DNA of 64,000 nt from NCBI GenBank assembly GCA_039654915.1, contig CM077597.1:82276001-82340000 (forward strand). The letters are read 5' to 3'. Positions 3,997-55,672 of the stretch are shown here, piece by piece (the first letter of the stretch is position 1; each line of letters opens with the position of its first letter). Source of the stretch: Aquilaria yunnanensis. Its lineage: Eukaryota > Streptophyta > Magnoliopsida > Malvales > Thymelaeaceae. A program made the position numbers and the translations under genes. A model generated the notes under the pieces. It made no database searches. It saw only the letters and a program-made list of their open reading frames with translations, and had not been told where the DNA came from.

Positions 3997-4074
3997 TAAT
4001 CTTGTTTGGAGCCGAGTTGAATATCGGTGTTGAGGTCCAATTTTACCTTTTTAAAGGAATATTTATTTTATTAA

Positions 4075-22200: not shown

Positions 22201-22481
22201 TACAAATTAATTACCAAAATTTTAGAAGTCCGTATCAATCTAAAAATTCACATCTGGATGATTCAGTTAAAATTTCTGGTTTGAAAATTAACTAAAATTA
22301 TTTAAAAGCAAGCAAAAAAAATTAAAATCAACTAAGGTATCAATTTTGGGCGTTAAAATAGAGTTATTTTAACGTAACCGTAATGCCGAACCCTCGAACT
22401 CTCGTAGACCATTTTTAGGTGTCCAATCGACCTAGGTGAAACCGATTGGTGACAACTCCCAAAAACCCCCACGTTGCCACA
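19224..22481 (+). repeat. 5' LTR of element C, 3258 bp
   Basis: It starts TTTTGACACCC where the 3' LTR has TGTTGACACCC (one substitution at base 2) and ends TTGCCACA. Compared with the 3' LTR it lacks roughly 825 bp (3' LTR bases 38331 to about 39154), with the junction near 19496. The missing piece contains the TATA-like box, so this LTR probably cannot drive transcription. It has about 20 copies of an ~80-bp minisatellite against about 13 in the 3' LTR, including a 246-bp exact-looking duplication at 20431-20922. Confidence 0.92.
19970..21480 (+). repeat. LTR minisatellite, ~80-bp unit, ~20 copies
   Basis: Each unit has GTGGATGGCTAAACGCCCCA (or a close variant) followed by a T-rich stretch built from TTTATTTATTT and TTTATGCACTTTTA. 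Units restart at about 20003, 20103, 20176, 20258, 20338, 20420, 20508 and so on to 21458. The counterpart is at 39640-40690. The long hydrophobic open frames here are translations of TTTATT. Confidence 0.93.
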
Positions 22482-22484
22482 GCT

Positions 22485-22502
22485 TGGCGACTCCACTGGG
22501 GA
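22485..22502 (+). promoter_or_regulatory. Primer binding site of element C (tRNA-Arg type)
   Basis: TGGCGACTCCACTGGGGA lies three bases after the LTR end. It is identical to the primer site of element A (5197-5214, other strand) and, from memory, complementary to the 3' end of plant tRNA-Arg(ACG). Confidence 0.88.
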
Positions 22503-22917
22503 GATCTACATTAGTGAGTCAAGCCTAAAAGTTGATTTGTTTTATTTTGCTTTGCTTATTTTTATGTAGATTCATGTACTATATTTACTTATTGTAAACA
22601 TGCATTATGCATTCACGACATGAAGCTCTATACCCGAGTTTCTTCAATTCAACCACGCTTTTTCAAAGCGGAATTGGTGTTGTTGTCCTTGTGAGACCAT
22701 GGTCTCCAAGCCTTCACCGATTTCAAGTAGCAAAGTAGTATATTGCCTCCGGAGACGGATAGTCTCTACATGGGCCTCTGAAAAGCTACCACTCGAATTA
22801 ATCCTTTCCTTACATAAACCCTTGTGGGTAAGGAATTGGGCTATCACTATAATTTAGTGATGGGATTTGGGAATTACCCTCGACCTTTTTGATAAACCAC
22901 CCTATGCATATAAAACT
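22503..22917 (+). other. Leader of element C, first part
   Basis: Non-coding. It is similar in reverse complement to the element A leader at about 4770-5195 (shared ATGCATTATGCATTC, GAGACCATGG and GGCTTGGAGACC-type blocks), so it is a conserved Tat leader interrupted at 22922 by a solo LTR. Confidence 0.75.
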
Positions 22918-22922
22918 CCCCA

Positions 22923-25595
22923 TGTAAAGGCTCTCCTAGTATTTCCTCTACATTAAATATCGAGGTAAGTGAATCCCAAGTATTTTCCCCTCAAATAAGT
23001 AGTATTAAGCAAGGAAAGCAAGCTAGTTAAGGTTAAATTGAGTTCCAAAGGGTAATTGGCACCTAAGGGGCATAAAGGGAAAAATGGTAATTTTGGCCCA
23101 AGTCAGTGGCATGACCGTAATTTTGGTAAAATTAGGTCCATGCAAGTGTTTTGAGCTAGTTAAGTTAAGACCATAGGTATTTATAGCCATTTGAACCAAA
23201 AGCTAAAGTTAAGGGTGAAAAATGCACTGAGTAAGAATTTAAGCTATTACGTCTTATAATGGCTTAGGTGACTCAAGGGCAGTGTGTTTGGGTAAGAATA
23301 ACCTTTCTTTGGGACCAAGGAGTGATAGAAATGGGAGTGTTTAAGTGGCCTAAGTGATGCAAAAAAAGTTTAAGGGCCAAGATGACAAGAGGAAGAAGTT
23401 AGGCTAAATTGGTTTAAATGGAGGAGATGACACTATTCATCATCTCCCCCATTAGCCATTTTCGTAGCTCTCCTTTCTCCCTTGCCTTCTACCCCCCAAA
23501 CCTCTCAAATCACTCAAGTTTTCATGGAATTTGAAGGTCCCGAAGCAATCCCAACAAGCCCTTAGCTCGTTTTCGGTGGAATTGGTGCATTTGGAGTTGT
23601 TTTTGCAAGTTTTTGGTTCAAACCCAAAGGTAAACGTATTTGATCCTTATGGGTTAGTTTTAAGCTTGTTAAATGGTTAGAAATGGTCTTAACTTCGTGC
23701 TATTGGTGTCCAATTTGGTTGATTTCAAGCTTGGAACTCAAGGGAACTCATTGGAGCTTGGAGGTGCTCATAGCTTGTTCTTTCTTTCAAGATGATTTGA
23801 GGTAAGGGATTTAAGTTAATTAAGCTCAAATAATGCATAGAAATGTAGTGTTATGTGTGGGAATGAAGTAGAAACAAGACCCATATGATTTGAGTTTGGG
23901 ATGAGAAAGTTTGAGCAGTTTTCGTGCAAGGTCGCACGCTGTCGCGCAATGCTGGAAAGCGTTGGCAACGCGTCGACGGTGGCGACGCGAGTTGGCGACG
24001 TGTCGCCGAGAAGTGCAAAAATTCTCCGAATGCTGATGCCTTTGGCGACACGTCGCCAACGGCGCCACCAAGGCATTTTGCCCCCAAGCTCCGGGCATCC
24101 TAAGAGTGTCTCAAACTCTCGGTCTTCATCCCTAGGCTAATTTAAGACGTTCCATAGCCTTGGTTGGGTCTAGGACTCATTCCTAAGTTGGGAATTATGC
24201 ATTATTTAGGTGGTAGCTAAGTGGTGTGGTTAAGATAGGGTAAGTAATGCTGGCTAAGGAAGTTAAAGTGCTTCAGTTCCCAAGTGAGCACTAATGGGGA
24301 TTAAGTCGGGTTTCAAACTCTTTGTTGGCCAAGTGGAATGTTATAGACCTTTGGTCAATAAAAGGGAAACCTAAGTAGATCCCAACCAAACTTTATGGTT
24401 TGGTAAGTAAGCCACTAAGGTGCCCTAAGCTAAGCTCAGAAAAGCTTGGTAAGTTGAACCACATAAGGTAGCTACCCTGCACAATAAGTTAAGCGAAGAG
24501 ACGGGTAAGGAATGAGTAAGTGGAAACTTACTCTAAGTAGCTCGTCAAGGCGGGTAAGGTTGAGTAAGTGATATCTTACTCTAAGATGCCCGTAAAAGGA
24601 CTTCAAGGGGTTAGTAGTTAAGTGCTAGCATAGGATACGAGGGCCAGTATCCAAGTACCCCAGTCGTAAGAGCTCACGACAAGTCCAGCACCTACGGGTG
24701 TAAGGAAGTCCTAAGTGCATTTGCATGTGCATATTTCATTCATCCATCCATCCATCCATCACTTGCATTGATTGTTGTTTTAATCTTGCTTCTAGCTATC
24801 TTGTTGATTGCTTGTTTTGTTTTGTATGCTGTCTATTTATATGCTTGTTGTGCTTTGTATGCATGCATTACGTTTTTCCTGCAGGTACTAATCCCTTACT
24901 GAGTACTTTGGAGTACTCACCCCTTAAGTGTTGTGCAGGTTTAAGCAGTTTTGTTTGGGCTTAACAGTTGGTAAGGGGTAGCTGTTAAAGCTAGGTTCTT
25001 TTGGTTAAAAGGTATTCTCTAAGTAGGAAACTCCATGTTTTCTAAGTTACTTATGGCATAAGTAAGTACTGACCAAAGTGTTTGCCTTATAGTTGAGGCT
25101 AAGTGAGTACAAGGAAAGTGTAGCTCATCACTTGAAGCTAGCTTGCTTGGGTGAAGAGCTAAGGATGGATCTTAGTAGTTATGAAATGCTTCTTTTAATA
25201 TGTATGGCAATTTCATACATAGATTGTCTATACTAATGACCATTGGTGTGTATAACACTAGAGTTACATTTGGGTGCATATAAGTTGGAAATGTATGCAC
25301 ATAGTTGTTACTTGAAGTTAAAGCAACTAAAGATTTATGTCTTGGCTTATTTGATTTATGTTTTTAGTAATTGCCGCGGCACTGTTTTTGATGAAGTTTT
25401 AATTTAATTATTATTGCATAGCTAGGACAACGCATGCATATTTCTTATGCAGGGTAGGCTAAGTAACTAGTTGCATGTAATGATTTAAGGTATTTTACAA
25501 GTAATAACTAGCCAACTGTAACTTAAGTGGGATCATAGTTCCCTAGAGCCTACCAGTGTTAGCAATTCAGGGCACTGGGGCCCTGTTCCGCCACA
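22923..25595 (+). mobile_element. Solo LTR of the element F family, nested in element C leader
   Basis: It begins TGTAAAGGCTCTCCTAGT and ends CTGTTCCGCCACA. These match the sense-strand ends of element F's LTR (TGTGACAGCTCTCCTAGT ... CCGTTCCGTCACA), and the two align throughout, including CTTACTGAGTACTTT near 24897 and the GC-rich palindrome block at 23940-24070. Flanks are CCCCA (22918-22922) and CCTCA (25596-25600), a target duplication with one mismatch. The corresponding empty site exists in element A (minus strand, near 4775-4790), where ACTCCCCA runs straight into CTTAACCATAGAAC. Length is 2673 bp, and it is diverged, so an old insertion. Open frames inside are not genes. Confidence 0.9.
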
Positions 25596-25600
25596 CCTCA

Positions 25601-25975
25601 CTTTGCCATAAAACCAATCATAAGATTCCTATGTTTTGGTTTCCATCACCATAGGCATGAATTTTTTATTCATTTGCTTATATTGCGAAATTTATGATTC
25701 TGTGTATTACTTTTTGCTGACTCCATTTTTCCTTGTTCATTTTTTTTTGCACATTCATATCATTCATTAGGTTAAGTACTCGGTGAAGGAATTATTACCA
25801 TGTAATCAGGAATTTCCATCATAGTCATTCTTTCACCGAGTACCTACAACATTTATGCATGCATGCATTAAATTAATAATCCAAGGCCTAATAAATTTCA
25901 CTTTTTTAAAAAAAAAGGTAAAGAGAAAAAATTGACACTCAACATCGATATTCAACTCGGCTCCAAACAAGACTT
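25601..25975 (+). other. Leader of element C, second part
   Basis: Non-coding. It includes a TGCATGCATGCAT stretch near 25856, which corresponds to the TGCATGCA units that are expanded into an array in element A, and ends just before the gag start codon. Confidence 0.6.
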
Positions 25976-27956
25976 ATGGCAGAGCAAACCGAAGGACGTC
26001 TCACAGATATTGAGTTCAAGATAGAAAGTATGGCCGAACAAATGAAACAATTAATGAAGCTAATCAAGGGGAAAGCAACCCAAGTCCCCATTAAAGAGCC
26101 ACAAGATCCCACTTATCCCCCGGGATTCACCCCACAACGGATCTTATTTCAGGAAAATCTTTTTCAGGAATCAGGTCCATCTGCTAGCATTCACCTAAAA
26201 CAAAATACTGCCTATGAAGAGAAGAAGACACTATCAAAGGAAGAAGGAGAATCTCAAAAGCTCAAGACAATATAGAAGAGGCTTCAGGCCATTGAAGGAG
26301 GCACTGTATTTGGATCTTTCTCGGTGGATGATCTCTGCTTGGTGCCAGATGTTGTGATTCCCTCGGACTTTAAGGTGCCAGACTTTGTGAAATACGATGG
26401 AACAAGCTGTCCCATCACTCATATTACATTATTTCTACGAAAGCTACAACCACTCACAAAAGACGAGAAGGTATGGATAGCACTTTTTCAAGAAAGTCTT
26501 ACAAAGTTAGCACTACAATGGTATCTAAGTCAAGGTCCAAGAAACATCAAAACATGGAATGACCTCGCTCAGGCTTTTATCAATAACTACAAACATGTTA
26601 TCGACCTGGCCCCGAATTGTCAAACTTTCCAGAATATGGAAAAGAAAAAGCAAGAAACCTTCAAGGAATACACTCAAAGATGGAGGGACTTAACCGCACA
26701 AGTTCAGCCACCCATGATGGAGAGAGAAATGGTAACTTTATTTGTCCAGACACTGAAGTACCCATACTATGACAAACTTATTGGCAATTTGGAAACCAAT
26801 TTCTCAGACATTGTCATGTCTGGAGAAAGAATTGAGCATGGGATTAGGACCGGGAAGATCACTAAATCCTTTAATGATGCTATGAAAAGAGGAGGACCAT
26901 CCAGAAGAAAGGATGAGGAAGTACAACAAATAGGACGCGGAAGAAGGATTCCCCTCGTGGGTACTGTGGCTGCTGGGCCTCGCCTATCCTATCCTACCAA
27001 TAGACCCAATAATTATTCTCCCAACAGGCCTAATTAATTATGGCTACCTGTTCCGACCCCTCCAGTGCCCATACAAAGACAGAGAAAATTTTGCTCCAAT
27101 TCCTATGACTTACATTGAGTTATATCCAAAGCTCATCAAAAGTCAACTTATCCATCCAATTCCTACAAGGCCATTGGAACCCCCATATCCAAGGTGGTAT
27201 GACCCCAATATAAATTGCCCATATCATGATGGCGTTATGGGCCATGGTTTAGAAAATTGCATAGCTTTGAAACACATAGTCCAACAATTAATCGAGTCGA
27301 AATGGTTGGACTTTTTTGATGAACCGAACGTCACTCACAACCCATTGCCGCCTCGTTAAGCTAAACCAATTAATATGATAGAGGAACATCAACTGATAAA
27401 TAAGTCAGTCAATGACATTACAACCCCTCTTAAGCATGTATACTCATCACTTGTGAAAGAAGGGTTCATCATTGGAAAGACTTCTCTTGGACATAAAGAA
27501 ATCAAAGGTGAAGAATGGTGTGATTTTTATGACACTCTGGGTCATTCCATCTAGGAATGCTCGGAATTCCATGAGAATATACACAGACTCATAGACTCAT
27601 TCCAACTCAGCATTTCCATGTCAAATGAAAATATTGATGTAAACGTAATCATAAAAAAGCGAGAAGTTAATGTTATGCCAAGACCATTAGTCATACCAAT
27701 TTTAAAACCTACTGTCAAGCCTTTAAGGATTCAAGTCCTGACTCCATTCCTCTACAAATCAAATAAGGCTATTCCATGGAAGTATGATTATACTTCCAAC
27801 ATTACATCAATTCCGTTAGAGGTTGGGAGCATGACTAGAAGTGGTCGATGTTATTCACCAGAGCAAATGGACAAGTTCCAACAAAATAAGAATACCACAG
27901 ACCCAACAAAGGGGCCTATTGGCATAAGTACATCAGAAGAACAAGGGGTGCCTTGA
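25976..27956 (+). pseudogene. gag: Gag of element C
   Basis: It starts at ATG 25976 (MAEQTEGR) and is the counterpart of the element A gag. Seen in order: N-terminal predicted coiled coil; PPGFTP; an in-frame TAG at 26273; capsid core with WIALFQESLTKLALQWYLS; a short proline/asparagine tract that is much shorter than in element A; a frameshift between 27037 and 27105; a CX2HX5HX4C knuckle (CPYHDGVMGHGLENC, about 27218-27262); a second, degraded knuckle near 27520-27560; and a C-terminal region to 27956. It would form the virus-like particle. The stop and frameshift make it inactive. Confidence 0.87.
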
Positions 27957-28277
27957 ATGGTAACAGATGAACAAGCTGGCGAATTTCTCAAACTCATAAA
28001 GCAAAGTGAGTATAGTATCGTGGAACAGTTAAATCGCCTCCCAGTAAAGATTTCCATACTCTCACTACTCTTAAGTTCTAACGCTCATCGAGAAACCCTC
28101 CTTAAAGTCTTGAACAAGGCCTATATTGAGTAAGATATTTCTGTGAATAATTTTGACCACTTTGTCAACAACATCGCAGCACAAAATCTCATCACATTCA
28201 TTGACGATGAGATACCAGCAGAAGGAAGAGGTCACTCTAAGCCTTTATATATTTCAACTAAGTACAAAGACTAAATT
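27957..28277 (+). other. Degenerate link between gag and protease, element C
   Basis: Same reading frame as 27105-27956 and 28278-29222 but with stops (for example near 28131). Residual coding similarity to a Tat gag-protease linker is plausible; no domain was recognised. Confidence 0.5.
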
Positions 28278-29222
28278 ATGGCTAGAGTCCTTATCGACAA
28301 TGGGTCAGCTCTAAATGTAATGCCACTTGAAACCTTACATAAGCTTGGTATAGACCCATCATATCTCAACAATAGTCATATCATCGTTCGAGCATTTGAT
28401 AGGACGAGGAGAGATGTTGTTGGAGAAATAGAGCTACTAGTAGGGATCGGCCCTTGTATCTTCCACATCACATTCCAAGTTATGGATATTAACCCTTCTT
28501 ATACTTGTCTGTTGGGAAGACCATGGATCCATATGGCCAGGGCAATTCCCTTTTCATTACATCAAAAACTGAAATTCATCATTGAAGGAAAATTAATAAC
28601 AGTCTTTGCTGAAGAAAACATTCTACTGTCTAGACCTGCGGATGCTCAGTATGTCGAGGTCAATGAAGATGTACCTGATTGCTCTTTCAGGTCTTTTAAA
28701 ATTATTAATGCTACCTATGTCAGTGAATATGGAGAAGAACTCGTGCCTAGCATTTCCAAAATGAGTCGCATGGTCGCCAAACTCATGATGAAAGGAGGAT
28801 ACTCACCAGGGTTAGGTCTGGGACAAGATTTACAAGGGATTTCAGAGCCATTGAAAATCTTTGCAAATGAAGGGAAATACGGCCTAGGTTTTACACCAAC
28901 AACGCAAGATAAAATGAAAACGATAGCTGAAAAGAGAGAAAAGAGGATTGCACGGCTAAAAGGACATGCCCTAGAGGGAAGAAATCTAGATATCCCTGAC
29001 ATAACTGAAACATTCGTGAGTGGTGGCTTGATTCTGAGAAATGACAATGAAGGCGCGCTAACCATCAGCATCGACAAGTCTTTTGAATATCTTTCGATTC
29101 AGGCAATAATCAGTGATTCACCCAAAAAAGAGGAGCTCGTTCGACCTTGTAGCTCACGGGATGTGCTGAACAATTGGGAGGCGATAGAACTGCCTGTTGT
29201 AATCGAGAGCTTTTCAAAGTAA
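28278..29222 (+). pseudogene. pro: Retroviral-type aspartic protease with G-patch, element C
   Basis: An uninterrupted 314-codon frame, but part of a broken polyprotein. The N-terminus has ARVLIDNGSALNVMP, the Tat-type active site in which DNG replaces DSG/DTG; a hydrophobic CLLGRPWIH segment follows about 75 residues later, as in pepsin-like retroviral proteases. Residues near 175-205 (GGYSPGLGLGQDLQG then GLGF) form a glycine-rich G-patch, an RNA-binding motif known downstream of protease in several retroelements. The enzyme would cleave the Gag-Pol precursor. The upstream frame is continuous apart from stops, so the true start is not at 28278. The reading frame ends with TAA at 29220. Confidence 0.85.
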
Positions 29223-29398
29223 TTTAATAGTAAAAACCTCCTAAAGAAAGGTTCAATCAATAGGGTGTAATCTTTGCTTAAGTGAACCTTTTAGTTATTG
29301 CTTTTCATTCCAATAAAGTTGTGATTTATGCACATTATAAAGCACCAATTTGCATTAATTTCATTCTTGCCATTTTCTCTTCTCTCTTTTCTCTCTAG
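29223..29398 (+). other. Possible intron or spacer between protease and polymerase, element C
   Basis: The segment separates the protease and polymerase frames and ends in a long pyrimidine tract followed by CTCTCTAG (AG at 29397-29398), a strong-looking 3' splice site. Ogre-type elements are known to splice an intron between protease and reverse transcriptase. A convincing 5' splice site was not identified; GTAAAA near 29229 is one candidate. Confidence 0.45.
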
Positions 29399-32300
29399 CT
29401 AATGCAGACCTAAAACTCTCTTTGATGACAATGAAAGAATGAAGTTTGATAATCCTATAAACATTGTTGACTCAGATGACAAAGATCTTCAAATATCTCC
29501 TGAGTTATTAAAAATGATCGAGTAGGATGAAAAAGAAAGAGCAACAAGTCAGGAACCAACTGAGACATTCAACTTGGGAAAAAGTCAGGATGTAAAAGAA
29601 GTTAGGATTGGCACGTTATTTCCTCCTGAAGAGAAAGAAGAACTAATCCACTTATTAAAGGAATATATGGACGTATTTGCTTGGTTATACTAAGATATGC
29701 TCGGCTTAAGCTCGGACATAGTGCTACACAAAATATCATTGAAGCCTGGTGCAAAGCCTGTTAGATAGAAGCTACGAAGACTAAAGCCAGATCTGATCCT
29801 GAGAGTAAAAGATGAGATTCGAAAGCTATGGGATGCCGGATTCCTTGGAGTCCCTGAATATACAAAATGGGTTGTCAACATAGTACTAGTTGAAAAGAAA
29901 GAGAGTGGGAAATTAAGAGTTTGTCAGGACTATCGGCCCTTGAACAAGGCTAGCCCTAAAGATAACTTCCCACTTCCTCACATTGATACATTGGTGGATA
30001 ATATCGTAGGAAACTCCTACTTTTCTTTCATGGATGGCTTTTCTGGGTACAATCAAATCAAACTCGATCCAGATGATATGATAAAAACTGCTTTTGTTAC
30101 CTTTTGGGGTACCTTCTACTATAAGGTGATGCCTTTTGGGTTAAAGAATGCTGGTGCTATATATCAAAGAGCCATGGTCGCCTTATTCCATGACATGATG
30201 TAAAAAGAAATTAAAGTGTATGTAGATGGCATGATTGCTAAAACTTTCACTACTGGGGGGCATTTAAATGTACTGAGAAAACTATTCGATAGACTTCGCA
30301 GGTATCAACTAAAATTGAATCCTACCAAATGTACTTTTGGAGCCTTTTCAGGAAAGTTATTGGGTTTCATGGTAAGCAAAGATGGGATTCAAGTTGACCC
30401 AAGTAAAGTTAAGGCAATACAAGAAAATGCAACCCCCGAAGACTCCAAAAGAAGTAAGAATTTTTTTGGGCAGAATCAACTTCAGAGCAGGATTCATATC
30501 ACAATTGACGTCCAAGTGTGAACCTCTTTTCAAATCATTAAAGAAGAACAATCCGATTGAGTGGAATAATGAATGCCAAGAGGCATTTGAGAAAATCAAG
30601 TAATACTTATCAAATCCACCAGTCTTGGTACCACCTCGATCTGGAGAACCGTTGATTCTATACTTATCAATACAGGATTCTTCATTAGGATCCGTATTGG
30701 GTCAACGCGATGAGACAAGCAAGAAAGAGCATGCAATTTACTACTTGAGCAAGAAGCTTACCACATATGAAGCGAAATACTCAGTAGTAGAAAAGTCTTG
30801 TTGTGCCATTGCATAGGTAGCAAACCGACTACGACACTATATGCTCAACAATACCACATTGCTGATCTCCAAGACTGATCCCATCAAGTACATCTTTAGG
30901 AGACCCACTTTATCAGGAAGGATCGCAAAATGGCAAATGCTGTTGTCTGAATATGACATACAGTATGTCACCTAAAAGGCCGTAAAAGGGAGTGCGATTG
31001 CTGAATATTTGGCTGATAGAGCATTGGATGATTATGAGCCAATGAGAATGGACTTTCTTGATGAAGATATAATGACGATAGAACAGGAAGTCTCTGAAGA
31101 TGATGAAACATGGAAAATGACATTCGATGGAGCATCTAATGCTTTGGTACAAGGGATTGGAGCCATACTTATCTCTCCAAGTGGAGAACAGTTCCCCCTC
31201 ATAGCGAAAATCACAGTTCCTTGTACCAACAATATAGTAGAATATGAGGCATGTGCTATGGGACTCCAAATGGCACTAGGACTGAAGGTACGAAATCTCC
31301 GAGTTTTTGGGGATTCTGCATTGGTCATATATCAAATAAATGGAGATTGGGAGACAAGGGATTCAAAATTGATCCCTTACCAAAAGCTCATACTAGACTT
31401 GGCAGAAAAATTTAACAGTATAAGCTTCCATCATCTTCTAAGGAAAGATAATCAAATTCTGGACTCCTTAGCTACTTTAGCTACCATGTACAAGATAAGC
31501 AACCCTGAGCATACTCCTATTTTTGAAATAAAAGTATTAGATTTCCTAGCTTATTGTATGAGTGTGGAGGAAGAATTGGATGGGAAACCTTGGTATCATG
31601 ATATCAAGAAATACCTCCAAGAGCGAGTATATCCACCAGAAGCATCAGAAAATGACAAAAAAATTTTACGAAGGTTGTCAATGGGTTTTCTTTTAAACCT
31701 AGACATACTTTATAAGAAAATCCCAGATTCGATGCTTCTTCGCTGTGTAGATGCTCATGAAGCACGAAAGATCATGGAAGAAGTTCATGCTGGAATGTGT
31801 TGAGCACACACTAGTGGTCATACAATGGCAAAACAAATAATGAGGGCGGGCTACTATTGGCTCACATTAGAAAGTGATTGCATCAATCACGCCAGAAAAT
31901 GCCATAAGTGCCAAATATATGCCAACAAGATCCAGGCTCCAACTGCTCCTCTTAATGTAACATCAATACCTTGGCCTTTCGCTATATGTGGGATTGATGT
32001 CATTGGAGCAATTACCCGCAAGGCTTCAAATGGTCACAAATTCATTCTAGTGGCAATAGACTACTTCACCAAATGGGTAGAGGCTGTGTCTTATGCAAGT
32101 GTAACACAAAAGGTGGTATGCCGATTCATTAAGAAAGAAATCATTTGTCGGTATGGATTGCCAGAGTGTATCATCTCAGACAATGCCACGAACTTGAATA
32201 ATGAAATGATGCAAACTTTGTGCTGACAGTTCAAAATCAAGCATCTCAATTCAGCACCTTATCGACCGATGATGATTAGTGCAGTAGAAGCGGCCAATAA

Positions 32301-32836
32301 AAATATCAAGAGAATTATTGAAAAGATGATTGTTACTTACAAGGACTGGCATAAGATGTTACCTTTCGCACTACATGCTTACAGAACTTCTATTCGTACT
32401 TCTACTGGAGCAACACCTTTTTCTTTGGTATATGGTATAGAGGCCGTATTACCCATTGAAGTTGAGATTCCTTCATTGAGAGTATTAATGGATACCCAAT
32501 TGGAAGAAGCGTAATGGGTTAAGGCTAGATATGAGCAATTAAACCTAATTGATGAAAGGAGAATGATGGCCCTCTGCCATGGGCAACTTTATCAAATTAG
32601 GATGATCCACGCTTACAATAAAAAGGTTCACCCACGACAATTTCATGAAGGTGACATAGTGCTCAAGAAAATTATACCAATTCAGCATGATTTTAGAGGG
32701 AAATGGACACCAAACTATGATGGACCATATGTGGTGAAGAAAGCCTTTCAGGAGGGGTCCTGATTCTGACAGAAATGGATGGTCGAGAGTTACCAAAACC
32801 AGTGAATTCAGATTTAGTGAGGAAGTATTTTGCATA
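29399..32836 (+). pseudogene. pol: Polymerase of element C: RT, RNase H, second RNase H, integrase
   Basis: Reverse transcriptase spans about 29590-30460 (LRVCQDYRPLNKASPKDNFP, then FSFMDGFSGYNQI, then VMPFGLKNAGA); its catalytic box reads YVDG at about 30219-30230 instead of YVDD. RNase H follows (EHAIYYLSKKLTTYEAKY, about 30727-30786). A second RNase H at about 31108-31490 (MTFDGASNALVQGIGAILIS, EYEACAMGLQMAL, VFGDSALVIYQI) is the archaeal-type copy that marks Tat/Ogre elements. Integrase covers about 31790-32760, with a CHKC zinc pair, the core (CGIDVIGAI, IISDNATNL) and the C-terminal DFRGKWTPNYDGPYVV segment; no chromodomain follows. The coding end is near 32836 (LVRKYFA). At least eight in-frame stops (for example 30201, 31801, 32224, 32512) and a frameshift near 30400-30480 inactivate it. 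Confidence 0.92.
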
Positions 32837-33860
32837 ATGATTAAGTTTTCCGATAGAAGGGAAGAAGTGGATACAGGATTGCCAGAACTTGTTCGATCAA
32901 AGTTGTCAAAGAGAGTGTTCTTCTCTCAGACCTTCATTGTTCTTCATCTATGCCCAAGACTTTTATATTCCCTTACTCATAAATGAAAACCTAATTCTCT
33001 CTAGCTCTTTTTCTTCGAATCTCACATTCAACTTTTATATTCCCTTATCCATAAATGAAAAGTCAATTCTCTTTAGCCCTTTTTCTTCAAATCTCACATT
33101 CTTGCTGGCCTCAAGTGTGCAATAAATTGTGAATTTGTAGGAAGGATAGTAATAATTAAAACTCAGAAAAAGGAAAGACCGTAGATTACTTTGATAAGCT
33201 TTATGAATTAAAACAAGTAAGATTGAGGTCTTCGGCTAACAGGAAAAAGAGTAACAAACCTTCGGGTGATTCCCTTGGTGGTTGCCTGGATGATCGCTTC
33301 AAAAGTCTTATAATTGAAAATAGGAGCATGATTATATCAACAAGAAGGAAGTATACTCACGAAAGTTTCGTAAACCTAACAACAGGGACGAGTATCCAAA
33401 AAGACTAAAGTATGAGGCGGGTGAACCTTAAGGAAGTTGAGGCCAAAATTCAAGAACAAGTCAAGAAAAATTTCTTTGAAGGGGCTTTCGAAAAGAATTG
33501 AGCTTTTGAGGCAACGGACAAGAGCTGAGAAGTATAAAGAGATTCAATGGTAGTCCAAGAAGGCAATCACAAAAAGGATCCTGTAAAGCAAAGACATGAA
33601 GAACTAGATCCATAAAAAACAAAAAGAAAAAAAGAAAAAAACAACACAACACAACAACAAAAAAAAAAAAAAGAGCCATCAGTTACACATGCCCTGCATT
33701 CATGCATTTCGCATTATGCATGCATGGCTTTTGCATAAAAGGGATCAAACTGAAAACATATCCGTGGCATGATTGAGACTTCAACTTCATCAGCCCATTC
33801 GAGTCTATTACTGGATGCACAGCTAATACACTGGACCAAACTGCATCAAGAATTCAACAT
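32837..33860 (+). other. Post-integrase region of element C, non-coding start
   Basis: No domain was recognised. It includes a two-copy TTCTTC(G/A)AATCTCACATTC block (33011-33030 and 33086-33105), an A-rich tract at 33617-33672, and TGCATGCAT near 33718. Scattered short frames are open by chance. Confidence 0.6.
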
Positions 33861-33862
33861 TA

Positions 33863-34140
33863 TGGTCAAGGATAAGGTAGACATAAAAAATGCTATCATT
33901 GACAATTTGTCAAAATTTGGCAATGGATTCGATAATCGAGGCTGCACCCATACGGACAGGATTGGCGTCAGCTCAATGGAATTTAAAAAAAAAGAGATAG
34001 CTATGGTCAAGGATAAGGTAGACGTCAAAAAATATTGTCGTTGACAATTTGTCAAAAGCTCGCAATGGATTCGATAATCAAGGTTTCACCCATAAGGACA
34101 GGATCAGCGTCAGCTCAATGGAATATCAAAGATAAGAGAT
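33863..34140 (+). repeat. Two-copy tandem duplication, ~141 bp, element C 3' region
   Basis: Both copies contain TGGTCAAGGATAAGGTAGAC (33864 and 34004), GACAATTTGTCAAAA, CAATGGATTCGATAATC, and GTCAGCTCAATGGAAT (33969 and 34109). Confidence 0.85.
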
Positions 34141-34292
34141 ATCTATGACATCAAAATATTGTCAAAAAAAGTAGGATCCATTTTTCCGGTTAAATGGTGG
34201 ATACGGTACTCCGTAACTCTCAAGTCGGTTGTCTCAGTTGCCCATAATAACTGATTTCTTCCTCCATTCTTTCTTTTATTTCCTTCTAGAAA

Positions 34293-34841
34293 ATGGATGC
34301 TAATATTTCTGCCTTGTAAAAATACTTTCCTTCTCTCCCAATGAACATTTTTAAAAAGATTTACCGACTTTGTTGTGAACGATTGAGAGTTTTGATGTAC
34401 AAAGGAATCCCTGAAGATGTGCGGTGGTTAATTGAAGCTAAAGTTTGTCTAGCAGGTGAAGTCCCAGATACATTTGTGTCTCACATGCCTGGCATAGGCA
34501 AAAGCTCTTATGCCAAAAAGTGAAGAGCGAAAAGGTTACAAGTCTGTCACAAATGTGGTCTATGGACTTGTGATACTAAATGTTGTTCTTTAGGAATGAT
34601 CTCCGATAATCGGGAAGACAAAATACGATTCATCAAGAATGGCCTGAGTAAGGATTCGTTGGATGATATCCGATTGATTCTTGAGACGCATTCTTGTGGA
34701 TCAGTGCAACGCGAACTTCTTGGTTTATGGAGTATTTTTCATAAAGAACGAGACTGGTACAGTCTTGGGAATTTGACTTTAAAAGACCCTGTTTGTCAGT
34801 TTGTAAGAAAATTGGATGGGAAGCAAATTCCCGACTCATAG
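34293..34841 (+). pseudogene. Unknown cargo-like frame, copy 1, element C
   Basis: Not recognised. ATG at 34293 opens a 182-codon frame interrupted by TAA at 34317 and TGA at 34521 and ending at 34841. Visible features: a basic N-terminus with KYFPSLPMN; VRWLIEAKVCLAGEVPD; a short cysteine cluster CHKCGLWTCDTKCC just after the TGA, which could bind a metal ion; then a charged helical-looking region (IRFIKNGLSKDSLDDIRLIL) and GLWSIFHKERDWYSLGNL. It lies in sense orientation after the integrase, a position where extra frames are known in some Tat and Athila elements. The second copy at 35130 matches it residue by residue, so this is a real former gene rather than a chance frame. Whether it came from a host gene or belongs to the element family cannot be decided here. 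Confidence 0.65.
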
Positions 34842-35002
34842 AAGGCGTTGAAGCCGTTACTGGACGTAAAACCAGTGGAAGATGTGAGCCACAGTCACAA
34901 TTACTGTACATACGATTTGTCATATTTGGAAAATTTACCTTTTCTTTTGACAATAATGTACTTGCTCCTGTAAGCGTAATTAACACGTTATTCTTTCATC
35001 GC

Positions 35003-35009
35003 TATAAAT
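35003..35009 (+). promoter_or_regulatory. TATA-like box before copy 2 of the unknown frame
   Basis: TATAAAT inside CGCTATAAATGCATG, about 120 bases before the ATG of copy 2. The same CTATAAATGCA context recurs at 35898. Sequence-only call. Confidence 0.35.
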
Positions 35010-35129
35010 GCATGTTCTTCTTTCTGGTTTAGTAGCGGATACGGTAGTCCATGACTCTCATAGTCGGTTACTTCAGTTTCCTACAATAACTGATTTCTTC
35101 CTCTCTTCTCTCAAATTCTTCTCTCATCA

Positions 35130-35640
35130 ATGGATTCTACTCTTTCTGCCTTGCGAAAGTACTTTCCTTCCCTCCCAATAAATGTTCTTAAAAAATTTAC
35201 CACGCTAGATATGAAAGATTAGAGTTTGTATACACAAAGGCATTTCTGACAATGTGCGATGGTTAATTGAAGCTAAGGTCTGTTTGGCTGGTGAAGTTTC
35301 AGATGCATTTACGCCCCGTATGCCCGGCTTAGGTAAAAGCGTTTATGCCAAAAAGTGAAGAGCAAAGAGGCTAGGCGTCTGTCATAAATGTGGACGATAG
35401 AATTGCGATACTAAATGTCACTTTTTAGGATTCATCTCCAAAAATCGTGAAGATAAAAGAAAATTCATTAAGAATGGCCTGTGTAAGGAATCTATCGAAG
35501 ATATCCGAGGGACTCTTGAAACGTATTCTTGTGGAATAGTGCAACATGAAATTGTCGATTTATGGAGGACTTTCCATAAAGAACGAGACCATTACAGTTT
35601 TGGGAATCTGACTTTAAATGCCCTGTTTGCCAGTTTGTAA
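35130..35640 (+). pseudogene. Unknown cargo-like frame, copy 2, element C
   Basis: Tandem paralogue of 34293-34841. ATG at 35130 (MDSTLSALRKYFPSLP) lacks the early stop of copy 1, but a +1 frameshift occurs before 35218. From there the frame (VRWLIEAKVCLAGEV, CHKCG, CDTKC, RKFIKNGL, FHKERDHYSFGNL) runs to TAA at 35638. It carries TGA at 35356 in exactly the position of copy 1's TGA (after YAKK) and an extra TAG at 35398. The shared TGA means either the unit was duplicated after that mutation or the position has some meaning. Function unknown. Confidence 0.65.
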
Positions 35641-35898
35641 GAAAACTGGATAGGAAGCAAATCCCCGACTCATAGAAAGGCGTTGAAGTCGTTACTAGAC
35701 GTAAAACCAGTGGAAAACGTGAGCCACAGTCAGGACTACTGTACATGCTAGCTGTCACTTTTGAAAATTTTCCTTCTCTTCCGACAATAATGTACCTACT
35801 CCTGTAAATGTAATTGACGTGAGTCACAGTCATGACTACTCTACATGCTAGCTGTACCTACTCTTGTAAATATAATTATTGCATTATCATTTCATCTC

Positions 35899-35904
35899 TA
35901 TAAA
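35899..35904 (+). promoter_or_regulatory. TATA-like box before the LOG-like frame
   Basis: TATAAA in CTCTATAAATGCACG, 48 bases upstream of the candidate ATG at 35947, with TTCCTCACAGG, a possible splice acceptor, between them. Duplicate of the box at 35003. Sequence-only call. Confidence 0.35.
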
Positions 35905-35946
35905 TGCACGCCTTTATTTTCATTCCTCACAGGTTTAAGGATAGGA

Positions 35947-36576
35947 ATGGAGAGAACCTTAACTCATAAATTGTGAAGTATTTATGTATTCTGTGGGGCT
36001 TTTCCTGGAAAAGATGAAGAGTATTTGAGAGCAGCCAACCATTTGGGTAGAGTACTATCTGAGCGAAAAATCCATTTAGTTTACGGGGGAAGTAATATCG
36101 GATTAATGGGAGAAGTAGCATCAGCAGCATCTCTAGGAGGAAGCCAAGTTTTGGGTATTATCCCTGCACCTTTGAAATTGATTTTTGGGGGCACGATTGG
36201 AGAAGAATTAGTGGTTAAAAATTTATAAAAGCATTTGCTACAAATTCTTTTTAACCCTGATGCTTTTATTGCTCTACTAGGAGGTTTTGGCACATTGGGA
36301 GAAATTTTCCAAATTGCTTCCATGGCCCAACTTAATTTGCACCAGAAACCCATTGGGCTGTTAAATGTTAACAATTTCTTTGCAGGTCTGATATATTTTA
36401 TGGATTACGATGTGCAAAAGAAATTTATCTCAGTGGTGGCACGACAAATCATAATATCCGTATTAACTGCTGAAGAATTGCTAGATAAAATGCAAGCTTT
36501 TGTTCCAGAGCCAGATCTAGCAGTGATTAAGATAGACTGGACACGACAGTCATTCCCGACCAGTTCCATCTCATAA
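35947..36576 (+). pseudogene. LOG-like cytokinin riboside 5'-monophosphate phosphoribohydrolase carried by element C
   Basis: LOG enzymes release active free cytokinin base from its nucleotide in the cytosol. ATG at 35947 opens a frame of 209 codons, close to the usual plant LOG length of about 210-220. Recognisable parts in order: VFCGAFPGK (LOG: VFCGSSxGK), LSERKIHLVYGGSNIGLMG (LOG: LVYGGGSxGLMG), VLGIIPAPL, GEELVV, then NPDAFIALLGGFGTLGEI (LOG signature PGGxGTxxE with P changed to L, GG-GT and final E kept), and KPIGLLNVNNFF (LOG: KPVGLLNVDGYY), TARQIIIS-like C-terminus and a final VPEPD. In-frame stops are TGA 35974 and TAA 36226. The MHxRK segment, which carries a catalytic Arg in LOG, is degraded to KHLLQ and shortened. 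No introns are present, whereas plant LOG genes have several, so it derives from a processed transcript. Product probably inactive. Confidence 0.87.
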
Positions 36577-37239
36577 ATGTCCTTTACCCGGCCTGTTGAA
36601 GCATTGTGGAAGAAAAAGAGATCGGACTTGTGAATCTGTTTATCTTGTCCTTTAGTTTTAAGATCATCATTTTTTTATTTTTCCGTTTCTTCTTTTATTC
36701 AGGGAATTTCTTCTTTCTTCTTAATCTTTTAGGGTAGTTTTGTTCATGCTGATATTAAAACCATTGGACAAAGCTTTTAGTTTGGAATGGCTGAGTAAGG
36801 AGTAATTTTACTCTTGAGATGCATCCTATTAGGAACATTAGTCATAACATTTTGGGGTAGGTAAGTTTCAACCCTATTTGGATGACATATCTCACAAGGG
36901 AATCTATATTTTCTAAAGAAAATATTAGATGAAACCTGGATATTGATTCCAAACATTCATTCCCTTGCATAATTTGTCAGTTTTATGAAATTTCTCACTC
37001 TCAAGATTCATTCATTTCATTATGAAAATTCACATTTCCGAGGAAACTATTCCAAATTTGATTGCCCTCATAAAAATTTTTGCTTGAGGTACTAAGGAAA
37101 GTTCCTTAACCTCACAAAGAAAAAAAAGGTTTTTCTTCTTAAGATTCGAAGCAATGTGAGAGTTCATGTTGTGAAAAATCTAGGAAAGTCCCTAAATTAG
37201 GTAACAAGGAGGAAAGAGTTTTTCTCCTTTGTCTATTTT
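36577..37239 (+). other. Non-coding 3' region of element C before the 73-bp array
   Basis: No domain was recognised. From about 37080 the sequence contains early, irregular relatives of the following array (AAGGAAAGTTCCTTAACCTC at 37095). Confidence 0.6.
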
Positions 37240-37910
37240 TCTTAAATGATAGGAAAGTTCCTGTCGTAGAGGTATTAAGGAAAGCTCCATAACCTCAAAA
37301 AGGAAGGAAAGAGTTTTTCTCCTTTATCTATTTTTCTTAAACGATAGGAGAGTCCCTGTCGTAGTGGTACTAAGGAAATCTCCTTAACCTCAAACTCAAT
37401 CAATTTTTCTTAGACGATAGGAGAGTTCCTGTCGTAGAGGTACTAAGGAAAGCTCCTTAACCTCAAACTCAATCAATTTTTCTTGGACGATAGGAGAGTT
37501 CTTGTCGTAGATGTACTAAGGAAAGCTCCTTAATCTCAAAATCAATTTTTCTTGGATGATAGAATAGTTCCTGCCGTAGAGGTACTAAGGAAAAGTACTA
37601 AGGAAAGCTCCTTAATCTCAAACTCAATCAATTTTTCTTGGACAATAGGAGAGTTCCTATCGTAGAGGTACTAAAGAAAGCTCCTTAATCTCAAACTCAA
37701 TCAATTTTTCTTGGACGATAGGATAGTTTCTGTTGTAGAGGTACTAAGGAAAGCTCCTTAATCTCAAACTCAATCAATTTTTCTTGGACGATAGGAGAGT
37801 TCCTGTCGTAGAGGTACTAAGGAAAGCTCCTTAACCTCAAACTCCATCAATTTTTCTTAGACGATAGGAGAGTTCCTGTTGTAGAGGTAATAAAGAAAGT
37901 TCCTTAACCT
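37240..37910 (+). repeat. Tandem array, 9 units of ~73 bp, upstream of 3' LTR of element C
   Basis: Each unit contains ACGATAGGAGAGTTCCTGTC, GTAGAGGTACTAAGG and AAAGCTCCTTAACCTC, joined by AAACTCAATCAATTTTTCTT. GTCGTAG (or a variant) recurs at 37263, 37358, 37430, 37504, 37573, 37659, 37732, 37805 and 37878. The spacing is mostly 72-74 bases. Tandem arrays just before the 3' LTR are a known hallmark of Tat/Ogre 3' untranslated regions. Confidence 0.93.
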
Positions 37911-38029
37911 TAAAAGGGAGGAGAAAAAGGTTTTTCTCTTCAGGGTTTAGGCGGTGAGAAGGTTCTCAATGCTTAGCTAAGGTCGGACAAAATTTGGTAA
38001 TGGCTTTGCATGCATCATGTCCCATGAGG

Positions 38030-38047
38030 CATGCAAAGGGGGACAGT
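38030..38047 (+). promoter_or_regulatory. Polypurine tract of element C
   Basis: GGCATGCAAAGGGGGACAGT directly precedes the 3' LTR; the AAAGGGGGA core fits a plus-strand primer. It is interrupted by C and T near the LTR border. Confidence 0.6.
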
Positions 38048-38181
38048 TGTTGACACCCAATTTCGTCCGGTTAAAATTAAAATTTTTTTTAAAAAAAATT
38101 TAAAAAAAAATTTAAATTAAAAAAAGTATATAATAACAATTAGTTTAGGGGCACTTTGTTTTATAGGGTTAGTTAAAAATA

Positions 38182-38227
<46 letters not shown>

Positions 38228-38555
38228 ATAAAATATAAAAAAAGAAAATTTAAAAAAAAAATGGACAAAATTAAGAAATTTGGGGTAAAACTGACAAAAT
38301 TGAGAATTTTTGGAAAAATATGACTAAATCTGGAAGTTCCAGGAAAATCTTGTAATTTTTCGCATGGTTTTGGGCTAAATTGACAGAACAGACAAATTTG
38401 GGCTAATCAGTAATTTTGTGAGAAATATGGGACCAGACCAGTAGTCAATGAAAGAGAAAGGACTAAAACTGTAATTTTGACCAAATTATGAGATAAATCT
38501 GTTTTTAACTAAATATCTAATTTTTTTAAATCAAAGGAATTCAATGCTGCTCCCC

Positions 38556-38563
38556 TATAAATA
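38556..38563 (+). promoter_or_regulatory. LTR promoter TATA box, element C
   Basis: TATAAATA in CTCCCCTATAAATATGGGTCC, about 510 bases into the 3' LTR and upstream of a pyrimidine-rich leader. Good match to a plant TATA box. The equivalent segment is deleted in the 5' LTR. Confidence 0.6.
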
Positions 38564-39639
38564 TGGGTCCAAACCTGCAAAATAAGGACGGAAAAAATCA
38601 GGATTAGAGCTTCTTAATTAAAAAAGGAAGAGCTTAGCTTTAGTCCCTATTCCTCTTTCCTTCTTTCCAGAAAAACCTGAACTTTCCTTTTTTCTCTGTC
38701 TGTTTTTTTTTACCGTTTCCCCTTTCTCCGTTTGCCGTCACCTCTCCCACGCCGGCGTTTCTCCCTTCCGCCGTCGCCGTCTGCCGCCGTTCAGCTAAAG
38801 CCCTCTGTCGCGGTTTTTTTCCCCTTTTTTTCTTCCCGTCGCGACCTCCCCCCCCTCCCCCCCGGTCACCGTTCTCCTTTCTCTTCCCTCTTCGTCCGTC
38901 CTCCTTTCTCCTTCCCCCCGTCCGTCGTCTTCTCTCCTACCTCCTCGCCACGTCGCCCTCTCTCCTTCCTCCAGCACCACCTCACCTCTCTCTCTCCTCC
39001 TCGCCAGCCGTCGCCCCTATCCCTCTCCTTTTCCTTCTCCTTCTCCTCCATCCTTTGTCTCTCCTCCCTCTGCCGTTTTCCCTTCGTTGCTTCTCCTAGC
39101 CTCACCGCCTCGCCGACGCCTCCTTGCCTTTTCTCCTCACCGTCACCTCTCCTCCTCTCTCCCCATCTCCCTGCCGCCGTCCTGCCTAGCAGTCCCATCC
39201 CAGCCGCCATCTCCTCGTCCCAGCCAAGCACCACCGCCAGACGTCGCCTTCCTCGGCCGTCGTTCTTTCAATCTTCGCCGCCGTCGCTCCTCTTTCCGTT
39301 TTTCTTTTTCGTCACCGCCCCTCCTCCCGGCCGCCGTTTCCACCTCTGTCCCGTCAGCCCACCGCCGACGAAGCCAGCCAAGGCAGACTGCCCCTCAATC
39401 GTCGCCGTCACCGCCTTCTACTTACGCCGCCGTCGCCGCCTCCCGTCACCCTGCCGTCGAGGAACTTCTTTTGAATTATTTTCCTAGTTAGGTATAATGC
39501 CCTTTTATCCCTTCAAAGTTTCTGTTCTGCTCCTAAAAGTCACTAACTCTCTTTTTCTTGCAGATAGGCCATTAACAGCCAATCTTTTTGTTTTCTTTTA
39601 TTTTCTTTCTCTTCGTTCTTGTAATTTTTTTTATGGATG

Positions 39640-40690
39640 CTTACACCTCCTAGTTTTATGTGGATCTCTAAATGCCCCACCTTATTTATTTATTTATTTA
39701 TTTTCATTTTATTTTCATTTATTTACTTTATGTACTTTTTTTTTCGTAGATGGATAAATGGCCCACTTTTCTTTATTTATTTACTTTATGCACTTTTTAT
39801 GTGGATGGTTAAACGGCCCAATTTCTTTATTTGTTTACTTTTTTATATTTATTTATTTTATGCACTTTTATTTTTAAGTAGATGGCTAAACACCCCACTT
39901 TCTTTATTTATTTACTTTTCTGCATTTATTTATTTTATGCACTTTTATTATTTTTTTACATGGATGGCTAAACGCCCTACTCTTTTTATTTATTTAATTT
40001 TTTTAATTATTTACTTTATGCACTTTTTTTAAAGTGGATGGCTAAATGCTCCACTTTCTTTATTTATTTAATTTTCTACATTTACTTATTTTATGTACTT
40101 TTATTTTTTTTACGTGGATGGCTAAACGCCCCACTTTATTTATTTATTTAATTTTCCAAAATTATTTAATTTATGCACTTTTATTTTTTTTAAGTGGACG
40201 GCCAAACGCCTCACTTTCTTTATTTATTTACTTTTCTGCAATTATTTATTTTATGCATTCTTATTTTTTTTAAGTAGACAACTAAACTCCCCACTTTATT
40301 TATTTATTTATTTATTGTATGCACTTTTATTTTTTTACATAGATGGCTAAACACCCCCATTTTCTTTTCTTTATTTACATTTATCCATTTTTTTTACTTT
40401 ATGTACTTTATTTTTTTAAGTGGACGGCCAAATACCCCACTTTATTTATTTATTTATTTTTCTACATTTTATTTATTTCTATATTTTTCTGCACTTTATT
40501 TTTTTGTGTGGACGGCCGAGCGCCCCACTTTATTTATTTATTTATTTACTTTCTACACTTTACTTATTTCTTTATTTATTTACTTTTTCTGCACCTTTTT
40601 TTATGTGGATGGTTAAACACCCCACTTTATTTACTTTTTATTTATTTGTTTACTTTTCTGTAATTTATTGTTCTTTGTGTGGACGATTAA
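39640..40690 (+). repeat. LTR minisatellite, ~80-bp unit, ~13 copies (3' LTR)
   Basis: Same GTGGATGGCTAAACGCCCCA plus TTTATT-rich unit as at 19970-21480, with fewer copies, which shows the array length changes between LTRs of one element. Confidence 0.92.
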
Positions 40691-41705
40691 CTTTATTTTA
40701 TTTGTTTACCATTTTTTTATAACTGGCTAAAAGCCCATCTTACTTCCTTATTTTATTATTATTATATATTTTTTTATTATTACAACCAAGCCCCCCCGTC
40801 CTTTATTTTTCTGTCATCTTTAACATTATTAGGAATATTAAGACTTATCCTTTTTATTTCCTTTAAATAATAAAATTTAACCTTTTATTCCATTTATTAA
40901 AAAAAATTTTAAGAAAATCATAACCAGGTGATCCAATAAAAGTCAATGGTTTTAAATAAGTTTTTTTTTAAAATCTATGGATTAGATAATTACTTTTAAA
41001 GAAAAATAAACAAATTTTAAGAAATTTTTTTTAAAAAAAAGAAGAAAATAATATTTAAGATCATTAAAAAATCCATATTTGGATAATTTCGTAAAAATTT
41101 ATGACAAAAACAGTTAATAATTAATTACATAATTAATAATAAATTAAAAATTAAAAATTTCATTAAATTCCATATTCGGGTGATTCGATAGCATCCATGG
41201 TTTGGAAAATATCAAATTTTTGATAAAAATGAATAAAAATTAAGTACCAATATAAAAAAATCCATATTCGGATAATTCGATAGAATTTATGATATGGATT
41301 GATAATTAATTAAAATATTTAATAATAATAATAACTAAATTTTCATTAAATTCCATATCTGGAGGATTCGATAGAATCTATGGTTTGAAAATATCAAATT
41401 TATTATAAAAAAAATTTATACAAATCAATTACCAAAATTTTAGAAGTCCGTATCAATCTAAAAATTTACATCTGGATGATTCAGTTAAAATTTCTGGTTT
41501 GAAAATTAACTGAAATTATTTAAAAGTAAGCAAAACAAAATTAAAATCAATTAAGGTTCCAATTTTGGGTGTTAAAATAGAGTTATTTTAACGTAACCGT
41601 ACTCCCGAACCCTCGAACTCTCGTAAACCATTTTTAGGTGTCCAATCGACCTAGGTGAAACCGATTGGTGGCGACTCCCAAAAACCCTCACCTTGCCACA
41701 CTTTA

Positions 41706-55558: not shown

Positions 55559-55672
55559 ACCTGCAACCACAGCCAGAAGACCATATCCAGAGCAACTTAT
55601 AAGCAGTACTAACCACACTTAACACAAGAACACTTTGATCTTAGTTCACTTATTGCCTCTACTAGGAACATT

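Follow-up and report, generated by a model that had tools for sequence, protein, structure and literature searches.

Cargo genes of a complete Tat-type element

The window (the whole stretch analysed, 64,000 nucleotides of Aquilaria yunnanensis contig CM077597.1) contains a complete retrotransposon, hereafter element C, with a decayed LOG-family gene lying in sense orientation between its integrase and its 3' LTR, and two decayed NABP-like open reading frames (ORFs) upstream of that gene. The features, all on the forward strand, are as follows.

19219-19223 and 41701-41705: target duplication CTTTA, on both flanks of element C
19224..41700 (+): element C, complete Tat-type Ty3/gypsy element (LTR alignment; ends and target duplication read off the sequence)
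19224..22481 (+): 5' LTR of element C (LTR alignment)
26276..27037 (+): GAG remnant (Retrotrans_gag, 3.6e-10)
28275..29222 (+): protease region, then G-patch domain (G-patch 2.1e-9; protease weak, 0.039, below cut-off)
29769..30521 (+): reverse transcriptase, two pieces split by a stop (RVT_1 3.9e-14 and 5e-5, the second below cut-off)
30604..30816 (+): RNase H of the reverse transcriptase (RT_RNaseH_2, 4e-14)
30976..31803 (+): additional RNase H (aRH), between RH and INT (RVT_3, 2.6e-19)
31804..32514 (+): integrase, pieces split by stops (first piece rve 1.9e-6 and Integrase_H2C2 2e-4, both below the Pfam cut-off; second piece unmatched)
34293..34841 (+): first NABP-like accessory ORF, decayed (direct repeat; limits set against intact relatives in copies L001 and L010)
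35003..35008 (+): TATA box, leader of the second NABP-like ORF
35130..35675 (+): second NABP-like accessory ORF, decayed (contains two stops and lacks 3 bases)
35899..35904 (+): TATA box, LOG leader; shares the TTTCATC.CTATAAAT motif
35947..36576 (+): LOG-family gene of 209 codons, decayed (codon 10 is TGA, codon 94 TAA, final TAA; catalytic R to H)
37203..37993 (+): tandem array with units of ~73 bp, between LOG and the 3' LTR
38048..41700 (+): 3' LTR of element C (LTR alignment)

The domains of element C run in the order GAG, weak protease match with G-patch, reverse transcriptase, RNase H, additional RNase H and integrase. An additional RNase H between RH and INT is described as the mark of Ogre or Retand elements of the Tat lineage (PMC6317226), and its position in element C therefore places the carrier in the Tat lineage of Ty3/gypsy. 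A second feature looked for in this lineage, LTRs flanked by a short target duplication, is present as well, and the two LTRs are 88% identical in their longest aligned block (2,094 columns). Elsewhere in the window, a second element at 2244-4050 (minus strand) has a GAG very similar to that of element C, its 3' part falling beyond the window, and an open 1613-aa frame at 50777-55618 (minus strand) reads as a Ty3/gypsy polyprotein, probably that of a young, unrelated element.

The 209-codon frame translates as an earlier note on this DNA had claimed, with in-frame stops at 35974-35976 and 36226-36228. The amino acid losses listed in that note are equally real: the arginine of MHxRK has become histidine and the proline of PGGxGTxxE leucine, unlike the 30 copies fetched from elsewhere in the host genome, all of which keep the catalytic arginine. 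The stop-free pieces match the Pfam profiles PF18306 LDcluster4 (9.2e-8) and PF03641 Lysine_decarbox (3.5e-21), both above cut-off, and, once the second stop is written as X, the 199 residues that begin at codon 11 match the Arabidopsis structures 2a33 (1.3e-44) and 1ydh (1.9e-38), which we take to be AtLOG3 and AtLOG8, as protein names in a relatives search partly bear out. Membership of the LOG family, which the note had proposed, is thereby upheld, and the domain matches, LTR alignment and CTTTA duplication bear out its placing of the gene as sense cargo of the element. What the note saw was the LOG cargo; what it missed were the viral-type partner genes upstream, a decayed tandem pair in the window of an ORF that has 182 codons. 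We note that the codon-10 stop is common to 4 of 31 LOG copies (the window copy, at 35974, and L012, L031 and L040), perhaps through a recurrent CGA to TGA change.

Abundance, origin and conservation of the module

The genome searched comprises 842 Mb in 345 contigs. A PF03641 profile search, in which the best 150 of 3,311 candidates were scored, placed all 150 above cut-off, 145 of them without a stop inside the match. In a second search, aimed at native genes, the best 150 of 3,208 candidates were scored; by identity and match extent the first 7 were taken as native and the other 143 as element-type, and a stop was present in 9 of these 143 matches (~64 residues long). Merging both lists leaves at least 288 distinct element-type LOG places, with 23-46 listed on each of contigs C1-C8, and these lists lean towards intact copies because best scores were taken. 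The earlier suggestion that LOG had been spread with the element is thus well founded.

The partner gene is similarly widespread. The best 150 of 7,051 candidates scored against PF05515 all exceeded the cut-off (best 9e-8), and this profile gave matches in none of 14 control genomes. For 19 of these 150 places, a listed LOG place lies 1.1-3.7 kb downstream on the same strand. Four control intervals within 10 kb of the NABP places (same strand upstream, two opposite-strand offsets, and same strand at 5-9.5 kb) held no LOG place, and a wider same-strand interval at 20-65 kb held one. Capture-recapture with 288 LOG places, 149 NABP places and 19 shared gives about 2,260 elements (roughly 2,000), an order of magnitude only, since the lists are not random samples.

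Thirty distinct copies were fetched for detail, L001-L008 being dropped as duplicates of eight of them. The LOG frame is intact in 24 of the 30, so that the intact sister copies whose existence the earlier note had considered possible are indeed found. Every copy has at least one NABP-like ORF or remnant upstream of LOG: two in 24 of 30 by best hits, two also in L039, and one in 5 (short stretch). Sequence of the 3' LTR, mostly its last 500-900 bases, was matched downstream in 9 of 10 copies (the reference copy included), L026 being the sole exception among those examined. An LTR pair could be aligned in 3 of 10 copies with separate upstream and downstream stretches, at identities of 99.77% over 3,468 columns, 99.69% over 978 (truncated where the stretch ends) and 98.1% over 1,173, the last in a copy with a doubled LTR start. 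Some transposition is therefore recent, given such near-identical pairs; equally, with a 3' LTR in 9 and a pair in 3 of 10, not every counted LOG place is proven inside an element.

These data also bear on whether the genes are simply a multi-copy host family of domesticated LOGs that happen to lie near repeats. Open frames and TATA boxes of their own would suit such a family, but the LTR sequence downstream, the similar spacing to the NABP-like ORFs and the spread over eight contigs speak against it, and we regard it as very improbable.

The module's origin was approached through introns and phylogeny. At the host's native LOG loci (L049-L055, with L055, which has a stop, the least certain) the match is broken into pieces of exon size, the breaks falling near residues 27, 59, 68, 103, 127 and 174 combined, and the element copy L056 matches over residues 1-192 in one piece, with a stop inside. 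The element LOG has thus lost the introns of its source gene, as a processed retrogene does, and the description of the frame as intronless stands. Two readings build on this feature: the earlier note's, that the element captured a processed LOG transcript, and a rival in which reverse transcription placed a transcript of a host LOG in element C alone, once the element had inserted, as a processed pseudogene or private capture. Neither survives the genome-wide comparison: the module holds this gene in all 30 copies fetched, LOG is listed at no fewer than 288 places, relatives with the same partner gene occur in other plants, and none of the native plant LOGs sampled, among them those of four host loci, falls within the element clade. 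Capture private to element C has almost no probability left. The shared position within the module likewise refutes a late capture, including a later, independent insertion of LOG.

A tree of 60 proteins, with two bacterial LOGs as its root, gathers 38 element-type LOGs in one clade (99/96) and 20 native plant LOGs in another (97/98), the host's own included; 4 of the 7 host native loci were long enough to enter, and the bootstrap is not fully settled. An earlier quick tree of 85 proteins likewise separates 44 native from 41 element-type rows. Two Arabidopsis LOGs served as queries for the native rows, which were then thinned, so that other native LOG types may be under-sampled. Since the element LOGs form a single clade outside the native plant LOGs sampled, their capture looks single and old, and both trees, on the rows sampled, reject a recent host origin.

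Relatives in other plants are called element-type on the basis of the tree and of high copy number. Their hosts, among the matches listed, are Reevesia, Diplodiscus, Populus, Xanthoceras and Parasponia, and NABP-like proteins occur, again among the matches listed, in Populus, Xanthoceras, Acer, Citrus, Parasponia and Orobanche minor. Two Citrus gene models (P0203 and P0224) fuse NABP and LOG, and LOG and NABP proteins of common source lie on contigs of equal size (8,723, 4,511 and 2,128). The viral-type ORF of the parasitic plant Orobanche minor is represented by P0205 and P0206, the latter with an element protease-like stretch, read from the sequence, ahead of it. The Populus proteins P0025, P0052 and P0084, which belong to the element-type clade, carry the gene name LOGL10 in public databases.

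Selection was assessed by dN/dS (Nei-Gojobori) on copies picked by profile score, a choice that makes both intactness and dN/dS lean towards conservation. Over the 276 pairs of the 24 intact LOGs, dN is 0.0169 and dS 0.0462 (ratio 0.365), and the fifth of pairs with the highest dS gives 0.276; NABP copies give 0.326 for N2 (20 copies) and 0.466 for N1 (15 copies). Divergent LOG pairs lie near 0.3 at dS 0.3-0.4: 0.30 (0.18-0.50) for L031 and L010, 0.29 (0.18-0.45) for the window copy and L010, and 0.29 (0.18-0.46) for the window copy and L014. The two NABP copies inside one element give 0.27 (0.16-0.43) in L010 and 0.28 (0.17-0.44) in L024, at dS ~0.5. Non-coding divergence around LOG in the same elements, at 0.19-0.65, exceeds dN (~0.1), the upstream spacers aligning poorly. 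The window copy and L031, both old, give a LOG ratio of 0.61 (0.37-1.08), indistinguishable from neutral, which is the behaviour to be expected of copies once inserted.

We therefore consider it quite unlikely that LOG and NABP are passive cargo, of no benefit to the element and open only through the youth of the copies. Youth is evident enough, since all but one of the 30 fetched LOGs share 95-100% identity with the reference copy and one LTR pair reaches 99.8%, but it does not account for ratios of ~0.3 at the dS values above, nor for the persistence of the LOG/NABP pair in other plants. Neutral cargo is disfavoured by dN/dS, and many LOG copies in this genome look maintained by selection, an outcome that agrees with the purifying selection for which the earlier note had proposed a test.

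Enzyme pocket, viral-type partner and promoter signals

For the LOG of C. glutamicum, Arg99 and Glu122 are the proposed catalytic residues, adenine is held by Met96, Lys100 and Glu121, and a putative prenyl site is formed by Met96, His97, Lys100, Glu125 and Trp129, identical in AtLOG3, OsLOG and CpLOG (PMC4979012). At the matching positions, native LOGs are unchanged in 120 of 120. Among 120 element-type relatives, the catalytic Arg is retained in 117 and Glu122 likewise in 117, as are Met96 in 105, His97 in 69, Glu121 in 115 and Trp129 in 117; by contrast 112 no longer have Lys100 (Met, Leu or Ile mostly stand there) and 111 no longer have Glu125. The host copies depart further. Arg and Glu122 persist in all 30, and the prenyl-binding set of Met, His, Lys, Glu and Trp is absent: His97 is replaced by Gln, Lys100 by Leu, Glu125 by Gln and Trp129 by Met in 30 of 30, Met96 by Leu in 29 and Glu121 by Gly in 28.

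With the catalytic Arg and Glu retained but the pocket residues replaced, the hydrolase chemistry looks kept and the substrate changed; this change looks strongest in the present host, relatives elsewhere keeping more of the cytokinin pocket. 'Cytokinin activation', the plain function assigned by the earlier note, becomes doubtful, because the residues that hold the cytokinin side chain are those replaced. The reading that the element LOG has remained a genuine cytokinin-activating enzyme, raising active cytokinin wherever the element is expressed, can call on an intact copy (L001) that scores 118 bits against a family cut-off of 27, on the catalytic pair, and on the adenine- and prenyl-site residues that the 120 relatives keep. 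It is opposed by the loss of Lys100 and Glu125 in nearly all of those relatives and by the wholesale replacement in the host family of positions that line the adenine or putative prenyl site in solved LOGs (PMC4979012), and we consider it rather doubtful.

The C terminus differs as well. Of the 120 element-type relatives, 97 close with an LxLxL tail, often after KRK, which is present neither in any of 120 native LOGs nor in the host copies; the latter finish in FPTSSVP, FPTSSLP or a near variant. LxLxL-type tails can bind TOPLESS co-repressors.

As for the partner, of 56 aligned NABP-like relatives, 49 match PF05515 Viral_NABP (best 1.1e-8) and 50 match PF01623 Carla_C4 (best 5.8e-8) at E up to 1e-3. 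The intact L001 copy scores 25.6 bits against PF05515 (cut-off 23) and 20.8 against PF01623, just below the cut-off of 20.9. The basic residues K75, K76, R77 and R78 and the cysteines C85, C88 and C97 occur in at least 90% of the 56 rows, and C93 is invariant. A search for relatives in viral contigs gave 22 pattern matches, none confirmed. According to published descriptions, cysteine-rich proteins of plant viruses suppress silencing, and the one from chrysanthemum virus B acts as a hyperplasia-inducing transcription factor (PMC12172455). By analogy, the viral-type protein may bind nucleic acid and counter silencing or reprogram transcription.

Signals for separate transcription accompany the cargo. 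TATAAA lies within 160 bp upstream of LOG in 30 of 30 copies, of N2 in 26 of 27 and of N1 in 13 of 13 (counting leaders long enough), against 224 of 2,479 background windows; because the copies are related, this is not a count of independent events. The longer motif TTTCATC.CTATAAAT occurs in 16 LOG, 26 N2 and 12 N1 leaders and in 14 background windows. In the window, the ORF leaders have sequence in common, and no TATAAA lies near the first NABP remnant. These signals suggest that the cargo genes may have Pol II promoters of their own and do not depend on the LTR alone.

Meaning and comparison with known systems

In sum, we regard element C, with good though not full confidence, as a dead copy of a very abundant Tat-type element, whose family carries, in the interval from integrase to 3' LTR, a conserved module of one or two NABP-like genes, coding for a zinc-finger protein, and behind them an intronless LOG-family gene. 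This cargo would manipulate the host, and its enzyme would be an altered phosphoribohydrolase. The following mechanism can be proposed: (I) each cargo gene would be transcribed from its own Pol II promoter, not from the LTR alone; (II) the viral-type protein would bind nucleic acid and either counter silencing or reprogram transcription; (III) the LOG-type enzyme would still cleave ribose 5'-monophosphate off a base, but with a changed substrate, either a nucleotide of another kind or a cytokinin whose side chain differs; and (IV) jointly, the two proteins would leave the cell more open to expression of the element, for instance through an advantage to dividing, meristem-like cells or through weakened defence.

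A bolder version of this reading, which we offer as a tentative possibility, treats the module as a counter-defence kit. A lineage of plant retrotransposons would thereby own a protein that it has in common with plant RNA viruses, similar to a silencing suppressor or a transcription factor, along with a glycohydrolase derived from LOG and remodelled in its pocket for another nucleotide, possibly a nucleotide-based immune or stress signal, each with its own promoter within the element. If true, the virus-like strategy of accessory genes would be at work in an element without an extracellular phase.

If a LOG-family enzyme and a plant-virus-type protein have been kept by selection over the long term, accessory genes are part of transposon life in plants and not accidents, and the module offers a testable route to how retrotransposons defeat silencing and enter the germ line. 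Annotators should also be warned that element-clade LOGs named LOGL10 in protein databases may inflate counts of cytokinin genes. A 2011 abstract by Steinbauerova reportedly mentions two Athila-like elements resembling LOGL4.

The earlier note had supposed that hormone-activating cargo in a retroelement was undescribed, but a YgdH (LOG) domain has been published in LTR-element consensuses of two Citrus species, and of poplar with a filter off (PMC9289625, citing Steinbauerova et al. 2011). Searches by title, with most subscription papers outside their reach, found no further report of LOG in retrotransposons, and, among the matches listed, none of a viral NABP-like gene in them. Within the literature searched, LOG cargo is thus known, and the module, its scale, the selection on it and the pocket change appear new.

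Compared with the plant cytokinin riboside 5'-monophosphate phosphoribohydrolases (2a33 and 1ydh), the element type has the same fold family, the PGGxGTxxE signature and the catalytic Arg and Glu in common, but it is intronless, its prenyl pocket is altered, and four relatives compared are 46-52% identical to 2a33. The cysteine-rich nucleic-acid-binding proteins of carlaviruses and allexiviruses (PF05515, PF01623) resemble the partner in having a basic stretch followed by a Cys finger, PF05515 being above cut-off, whereas the element version has 182 aa, is encoded by a retrotransposon and often stands in tandem duplicate. Retand elements with TRP28 antisense ORFs (PMC11963269) also have a long region from pol to the 3' LTR with extra ORFs and tandem repeats; their ORFs, however, are antisense, and the terms 'cytokinin' and 'lysine decarboxylase' are absent from the main text of that paper. 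The Phalaenopsis Ty3/gypsy elements with an AlkB m6A demethylase (PMC9289625) likewise combine giant size with a cargo enzyme of host type, but the enzyme and the plant group are different. In the LTR elements of Citrus and Populus reported in the same paper, a LOG-family domain is likewise extra cargo of Gypsy-type elements. The account given of them there runs to two sentences and says nothing on copy number, selection, a partner gene, the pocket or function, and 'Carla', 'NABP' and 'nucleic acid binding' are absent from the paper's main text. The carrier described here, in contrast, has an additional RNase H between RH and INT, hence belongs to Tat, and brings with its LOG a Viral_NABP-like partner.
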